Assembly: GCA_020073525.1 (NCBI GenBank)
Contig: JAIQFA010000013.1
Location: 1-64,000 of the forward strand
Length of the DNA: 64,000 bases
Origin: Terriglobia bacterium
Lineage (GTDB): Bacteria; Acidobacteriota; Terriglobia; Terriglobales; Acidobacteriaceae
Direction of reading: 5' to 3'
Shown here: positions 61,588 through 62,120 of the stretch, one piece after another
Numbering within the stretch: the stretch's first letter is position 1
Layout: each line of letters opens with the position of its first letter
Notes under the pieces: generated by a model
What the model saw: the letters and a program-made list of their open reading frames with translations, nothing else
Told to the model about the DNA's origin: nothing
Database searches by the model: none
Made by a program: the position numbers and the translations under genes

Positions 61588-61737
61588 ATGAACTACAGCA
61601 AGCCCGATGTAAGCACTCTCGGTCAGGCCAAGAGCGTGATCGAGCAGACTCCCGTCACTACGAAGCTGAGCACCAGTTCCGACGGCGGTCCGATTGGCTT
61701 CAACAAGCCCAATCCCGCGTACGACCTGGACGAGTAA
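61588..61737 (+). CDS. Lasso-like RiPP precursor peptide 1 (49 aa)
   Basis: MNYSKPDVSTLGQAKSVIEQTPVTTKLSTSSDGGPIGFNKPNPAYDLDE*; AAAGGAG RBS 10-16 nt upstream; adjacent to cyclase; paralogous to next ORF; YxxPxVxxxG lasso-leader signature. Confidence 0.9.
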   Translation: MNYSKPDVSTLGQAKSVIEQTPVTTKLSTSSDGGPIGFNKPNPAYDLDE

Positions 61738-61779
61738 CCAAAGAACGGGTCACTAATTTGTCAGCAATTAGCGCCCACA

Positions 61780-61810
61780 CCTTCCCGACCGTGCACAACG
61801 GCCGGGAAGG
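61780..61810. terminator. Inter-precursor hairpin (11 bp stem with one mismatch, 9 nt loop)
   Basis: CCTTCCCGACC-GTGCACAAC-GGCCGGGAAGG; no T-tract, so attenuator/processing element or weak terminator. Confidence 0.5.
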
Positions 61811-61903
61811 ACATATTACACCTTCGCGTGCGGATCAAGCGAGCGACGACCGCCCGCAGTATTTCGGCGTACGCAATGCATATTTCAGAAAAGGAGCTAC
61901 GCC

Positions 61904-62050
61904 ATGAACTACGTGAAACCAGAAGTGGCGGTACTCGGCACGGCAGTTCGCGTGATCGAGCAGATCCCCATCCAAAAGGGGCCTTACACGGTTATCGAGG
62001 TAGCTTCCCCGAAGTATAGGGTCAATCCCGCGTACGACCTGGACGAGTAA
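61904..62050 (+). CDS. Lasso-like RiPP precursor peptide 2 (48 aa)
   Basis: MNYVKPEVAVLGTAVRVIEQIPIQKGPYTVIEVASPKYRVNPAYDLDE*; AAAAGGAG RBS; 13/20 leader residues and last 8 residues identical to precursor 1. Confidence 0.9.
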   Translation: MNYVKPEVAVLGTAVRVIEQIPIQKGPYTVIEVASPKYRVNPAYDLDE

Positions 62051-62120
62051 CCAAAGGACGGGTCGGCACATCACCCTGCCTATGACGAATCGAGAGGGTG
62101 TGCTCTGGAGCGGTAGTAGA

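Follow-up and report, generated by a model that had tools for sequence, protein, structure and literature searches.

Two old tandem lasso-type precursor genes of a soil acidobacterium share a short, recent block of DNA identity that is probably due to gene conversion

The described systems with which the present locus can be compared include an acidobacterial lasso cluster from a soil metagenome, BGC 482.1, which according to the accessible part of its description has the order PqqD/B1, aminoglycoside-phosphotransferase-like kinase, B2 and C, with two 141-nt A genes and then a 2.1-kb hypothetical gene after C (PMC9064862). Its ring was proposed to start at Gly, with Leu/Ser at -2, and no product was detected in E. 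coli, and that same part of the article reports neither a tail motif nor a Lys-acid spacing (PMC9064862). Precursors with Ile/Val at -2 have been described as BsfA of Bradymonas and its Acidobacteriaceae homologues, in which core residue 1 is at P+14 and BsfA is assigned a Gly1-Asp8 ring (PMC10368454). A third point of comparison is provided by the clusters with isopeptidases of the AtxE2/astexin type (PMC9266682).

The window, by which the whole stretch of 64,000 nucleotides analysed here is meant, comes from the draft genome of a soil acidobacterium (210 contigs, 5.65% contamination). A second rpoB, 80% identical in protein, is present on contig C127 of the same genome bin, which fits the contamination figure. 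Relatives were collected by cyclase searches and belong to the same family, the named records among them being Acidobacteriaceae, Acidobacteria, Candidatus Sulfotelmatobacter and Edaphobacter, and 80 loci gave 96 precursors, to which two were added by eye (L118, L034) for a total of 98 (L032-L118); no precursor came from a few of the loci. The selection was made on the pattern of the leader or tail and not on core features, so the tail frequencies given below are somewhat inflated. The closest relative, genome G165, has three precursors, designated g1, g2 and g3. All results are obtained by sequence comparison, from which the direction of copying, conversion as its mechanism, the role of the tail and the ring chemistry are inferred.

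The genes of the window cluster are as follows.

52573..54414, minus strand: ABC exporter (PF00664, PF00005)
54805..55167, plus strand: B1, PqqD-type RiPP recognition element (PF05402, 2.8e-18; TbiB1 structure 5v1u, 8.6e-10)
55190..55963, minus strand: XRE-type regulator (weak HTH_3 match, 2.8e-4)
57045..59213, plus strand: prolyl-oligopeptidase-type S9 peptidase (PF02897, PF00326; 2bkl, 7.7e-121)
59099..59581, plus strand: B2, transglutaminase-like leader peptidase (NF033537 lasso_biosyn_B2, 72.9 bits, cut-off 33)
59598..61517, plus strand: C, asparagine-synthetase-like macrolactam cyclase (PF00733, 2.7e-33; PP-loop SGGLDSS)
62121..64000, minus strand: AtxE2-related isopeptidase-like S9 protein (NF033523, 1e-35; AtxE2 5txc, 4.2e-25)

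The proteins expected of a lasso cluster are found here: an RRE-type B1, a B2 leader peptidase, whose start codon is uncertain and whose gene overlaps the end of the S9 gene, and an asparagine-synthetase-like cyclase, whose best NCBIfam match is NF033535 (7.8e-85, 285.8 bits, under the cut-off of 525). The S9 peptidase at 57045..59213 is kept in many sister clusters. The isopeptidase-like ORF extends past the window to an end near contig position 64478; its 123.6 bits against NF033523 fall short of the cut-off of 400 for that curated family, and its relationship to S9 is evident, with Ser and His invariant in 63 homologues. The nucleophile motif in these homologues is mostly GFSR[TS], not GxSxG, and they lack a conserved Asp in the part of the alignment that contains the AtxE2 Asp. 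An ORF for a TonB-type outer-membrane barrel lies past the window end, and its counterpart in L043, another lasso-type cluster of this genome, matches PF25183. Between the regulator and the S9 gene, positions 56000-56800 are poorly conserved and may be a relic of the gene, about 460 codons long, that occupies this place in sister clusters.

Taken together with the precursors, the RRE, leader peptidase, cyclase and isopeptidase-like S9 protein make this a lasso-type RiPP cluster with a predicted product. As far as the available description of BGC 482.1 goes, its layout is similar to that of L043, which has an added S9 gene, while the window cluster differs in having an S9 gene before B2 and no kinase gene that could be seen. 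L043 itself has an APH-like kinase gene, which is seemingly absent from the window cluster. With the AtxE2/astexin-type clusters (PMC9266682) the window shares the AtxE2-related S9 protein and the neighbouring TonB-type beta-barrel, and it differs from them by the ABC exporter, the split B1/B2 and the GFSR[TS] motif.

Two precursor genes lie between the cyclase and isopeptidase genes, and these and the elements around them are listed here in order of position.

61588..61737, plus strand: precursor W1, ORF of 49 amino acids, MNYSKPDVSTLGQAKSVIEQ TPVTTKLSTSSDGGPIGFNKPNPAYDLDE
61710..61751, plus strand: block copy 1, on the donor side of the proposed tract, comprising the last 8 codons, the stop and 14 nt of 3' UTR
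61717..61734, plus strand: W1 C-terminal motif AYDLDE (family column counts)
61780..61810, plus strand: G+C-rich stem-loop after W1 (z -3.6)
61904..62050, plus strand: precursor W2, ORF of 48 amino acids, MNYVKPEVAVLGTAVRVIEQ IPIQKGPYTVIEVASPKYRVNPAYDLDE
62023..62064, plus strand: block copy 2, on the recipient side, with 1 mismatch and both flanks unrelated to W1
62030..62047, plus strand: W2 C-terminal motif AYDLDE (family column counts)

Each precursor is preceded by a Shine-Dalgarno-like AAAGGAG or AAAAGGAG. W1 has the leader motif Y-x-x-P with Ile at P+12 and aligns with 97 relatives adjoining lasso-type cyclases; W2 likewise has YxxP in the leader and Ile at P+12, so that both have the lasso-type leader, YxxP with Thr (or Ile/Val) at -2. 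Neither has an NCBIfam match, or a Pfam match near a cut-off. The stem-loop after W1 has counterparts after g2 of G165 and after the precursors of L118, L078, L034 and L077; none was predicted after W2, and a weak one was predicted after g3. A strong stem-loop about 40-70 nt past the precursor stop is seen in most close relatives (L033, L118, L078, L034, L077), and the window copy has no obvious U-run downstream. This element is possibly an mRNA stabilizer or attenuator.

A repeat search of the window returned a direct repeat of 42 nt (61710-61751 and 62023-62064) that is 98% identical, with 1 mismatch (41/42), and that comprises the C-terminal codons of both precursors (NPAYDLDE), their TAA stop and 14 nt of 3' UTR. 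A first reading of the sequence alone had reported this block as 41 nt with one base differing, which is correct, one further matching base preceding it. The DNA identity between W1 and W2 is 64% over the 40 nt upstream, 66% in the leader and 51% in the core, the last being no better than codon shuffles, which bears out the statement of the same sequence-only reading that the cores cannot be aligned. On the 3' side the identity is 100% over tail and stop, 13/14 over the first 14 nt of the UTR and 54% over its first 40 nt, the two UTRs being unrelated beyond 14 nt after the stop. Weaker repeats between W1 and W2 occur at the 5' end, at the SD/start (79%) and in the leader (87%).

In other within-cluster precursor pairs an identical residue has an identical codon in only 59% of cases, and random precursors match at 3.7 of the first 14 UTR bases, most other within-cluster pairs being at chance or slightly above; the identity of the block is therefore not explained by chance or protein constraint alone. 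In a regression of block identity against leader identity for 25 within-cluster pairs, W1/W2 lies at +3.5 sd and the next pair at 1.7. With this outlier and the 13/14 matches in the UTR, the earlier argument that identity past the stop goes beyond protein constraint holds. An exact DNA pattern for NPAYDLDE and the stop had no match in the named genomes searched.

The protein sequence encoded by the block is, by contrast with its DNA, a property of the family as a whole. Conservation along the precursor is highest at the C-terminus, column counts giving Tyr at -5 in 81/96 and Asp/Glu at -2 in 89/96 and at -1 in 93/96, and the tail consensus is [AG]-Y-[EDQ]-[ALS]-D-E, with AYDLDE in the window and AYxADE elsewhere. 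With 20 precursor pairs pooled, pN and pS are 0.01 and 0.59 in the tail, 0.15 and 0.49 in the leader, and 0.25 and 0.48 in the core, while at loci with 60-85% cyclase identity the mean leader, core and tail identities are 60/33/92%. Tail DNA thus normally drifts, since pS is 0.59 where pN is 0.01, and the combination of conserved flanks and varying cores with free synonymous drift indicates that selection is on the peptide and not on the DNA, so that the AYDLDE-type ending is, by these rates, held by protein-level selection. The idea of fixed ends around a variable core accordingly stands for the family at the level of protein and fails as a statement about DNA: the conservation of the flanks as DNA, which had been proposed as its check, is not found, the synonymous sites of the tail being free and the UTR unrelated in relatives. 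We infer a requirement for AYDLDE in maturation, threading or recognition. The literature searched, mostly outside the subscription journals, contained nothing relevant on an AYEADE-type motif.

The history of the two genes can be read by comparison with G165. The W2 core aligns with the g3 core with a score of 40, the next best being 20, and none of 20,000 shuffles reaches 40. At the DNA level the same match does not reach significance (codon shuffle p 0.32), presumably through saturation of synonymous sites, and the orthology of W2 and g3 therefore rests on protein and position, W2 and g3 both being last in the array and adjoining the isopeptidase gene. The spacer between W1 and W2 can be aligned in its 5' part with that between g2 and g3. 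In the same way the W1 3' UTR, running on from block copy 1, is beyond the block the ortholog of the g2 3' UTR, the stem-loop being common to both. From the orthology of the W2 and g3 cores it follows that the W1 and W2 cores predate the split from the G165 lineage and, with that of the W1 and g2 UTRs, that W1 and W2 are old paralogs.

W1 and W2 are thus probably old tandem precursors in which AYDLDE has been kept by protein selection and the identity of the DNA results from recent conversion. A short gene-conversion tract of about 42 bp would have been copied recently from W1 into W2, 313 bp away, leaving the old cores on either side untouched; the direction would be from W1 to W2 because the UTR part of the block is like W1 and g2 and unlike g3. 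What is found, localized recent identity with older divergence on both sides, is the pattern expected of gene conversion, and the bounded tract and its 3.5 sd excess support the suggestion already made from the sequence that conversion lies behind the identity past the stop. The history is resolved by one close relative, G165, whose right-hand part is an old allele, and the tract is short and the case for conversion is that of one pair. The 5' end of W2 is closer to W1 (79% over 47 nt) than to g3, which may point to more than one exchange. Comparable exact tracts are present in L043 (35 nt at the leader end), L110 (30 nt, tail to UTR) and L061 (24 nt), and synonymous divergence is greater in the core than in the leader in L061 (p 0.03; p 0.08 in L043), as expected in L061 if its ends have been homogenized. 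In concerted evolution of tandem paralogs in general, short tracts are likewise homogenized while distinct functional parts are kept; no description of this was found for lasso precursor arrays, and the literature searched, again mostly without subscription journals, held nothing relevant on gene conversion in lasso precursors.

It is unlikely that W1 was instead duplicated recently to give W2, the leader and core of the copy being exchanged afterwards by recombination for those of a g3-like allele and the block being a leftover. Such a history would likewise leave W2 mosaic with an end like that of W1, and a large allele replacement is apparent at the B2/C junction of this locus, but an extra downstream breakpoint would be needed 14 nt past the stop, and W2 is already in the position of g3, with the shared end of the isopeptidase gene downstream. 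Improbable to a greater degree is a recent tandem duplication of the entire gene with accelerated and possibly selected diversification of the core thereafter, which the sequence-only reading had put forward for W1 and W2. Cores do outpace leaders and tails in recent paralog pairs elsewhere (L049, L038), but the orthology of the W2 and g3 cores contradicts this account, the W1 and W2 cores not being younger than the split from the nearest relative; the leader is, moreover, already 34% diverged, and the identity ends 14 nt past the stop. There is very little to recommend conservation of the block for itself as DNA or RNA (a terminator, attenuator or regulatory site), which its span across stop and UTR and the conserved stem-loop nearby might suggest, since the relatives do not retain the block, tail pS is high, UTR matches are near chance, the stem-loop is outside the block, and CCAAA occurs in only 7/98 precursor UTRs, by which a shared 3' UTR motif was rejected. 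An assembly artefact, for which the contig number and contamination of the draft and the second rpoB in the bin could be cited, is hardly credible when G165 has the same gene order across the array, together with orthologs of the flanks on either side of each copy, and a 42-nt repeat in unique 300-nt context is untypical of misassembly. The block is a product of ordinary evolution.

The rapid evolution of cores that had been proposed for W1 and W2 does not apply to that pair; it does apply to the family, in recent paralog pairs elsewhere. Over seven such pairs, nonsynonymous change is concentrated in the cores (pooled Fisher p 3e-16), and in L049 the core has pN 0.34 against 0.08 in the leader at equal pS, L038 likewise having a faster core. 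Cores diverging at the rate of the flanks, which would have spoken against the proposal, are seen in some orthologs only: L046/L051 have 72% identity in the core and 68% in the leader, and near-identical cluster pairs keep the core (L096/L102 100%, L098/L103 95%). Two further arrangements were observed. L043 (contig C54) has at 10104-10513 a pair of precursors that are identical in the leader but differ in the ring region, and L079 and L081, with cyclases 86% identical and cores only 18%, apparently have two adjacent cyclase genes and precursors with -DWE-type tails.

The core also has a regular feature, the spacing between a lysine and an acidic residue, which in the two window precursors is located as follows.

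61663..61683, plus strand: W1 Lys26...Asp32, K-x5-[DE] spacing conserved across the family
61976..61999, plus strand: W2 Lys25...Glu32, K-x6-[DE] spacing

Ile/Val is at P+12 in most of the 98 precursors and Gly/Ser/Ala at P+14 in 73/98, so the YxxP leader and the junction are common to the family and BsfA. The family differs from BsfA, with its ring acid at 8, in that the acid follows a floating Lys and is at core positions 7-9 counted from P+14 in only 33/98; in W1, as in W2, it is found at residue 13 from the junction and is not the Asp/Glu at 7-9 of the usual lasso pattern. The first core Lys is near-invariant and floats, mostly at positions 3-6 after the junction, and among the 96 Lys-bearing precursors an acid is at +6 of this Lys in 52 and at +7 in 35, against about 7 each, with a maximum of 17, in shuffles. 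(These two counts are from an unconditioned test; the spread of the Lys-acid distance, 0.49, is conditioned on the choice of Lys.) Distant members (L112) have Gly1...Asp8 or Glu8 spacing without the conserved Lys. Eight cores have Pro directly after Lys, which disfavours cleavage directly after the conserved Lys.

The spacing hints at a Lys-closed ring, which is its most natural reading as against extra trimming or another role. It is possible, rather than probable, that the ring is a 7- or 8-residue isopeptide from Lys to Asp/Glu and not one closed via the residue freed at the Ile/Val(-2) junction; either the Lys side chain would be used together with a free N-terminal extension, or Lys would be residue 1 after trimming, and nearly all products would end in the conserved AYxxDE. 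The family may be a lasso variant.

An exchange on a larger scale is suggested by the divergence of the window from G165 along the cluster, which changes at one point.

59580-59610, onwards to contig position about 69000: divergence step against G165 (pS comparison)

In the six genes from the ABC exporter up to B2, pS is 0.17-0.21, and in the cyclase, isopeptidase, receptor and next gene it is 0.50-0.70, the identity being about 91% before the B2/C junction, near 59.6 kb, and about 78% after it. Judged by two housekeeping genes compared between the genomes, rpoB (pS 0.34) and gyrB (pS 0.37), the left block is too young and the right block too old for the divergence of the genomes. This is read as recombination that exchanged the product-specific half of the cluster; a strain chimera at the B2/C junction may be an alternative, both genomes being draft.

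The shared ending is a hallmark of a large and little-studied peptide family, and the data separate the conservation related to the enzymes, which is that of the leader and the C-terminal motif at the protein level, from the variable core, tandem precursor genes allowing one enzyme set to give several peptides. Exchange within these clusters takes place on two scales. On the smaller, short tracts homogenize the ends of neighbouring precursors; on the larger, the exporter, RRE, S9 peptidase and leader peptidase genes form a young block, set apart by the step at the B2/C junction from an old one with the cyclase, precursor, isopeptidase and receptor genes, as though the half that specifies the product moved as one piece. 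Should the ring be marked by the Lys-acid spacing, current rules for ring prediction would mis-call most acidobacterial members, and this could be one reason why expression attempts found no expected mass.
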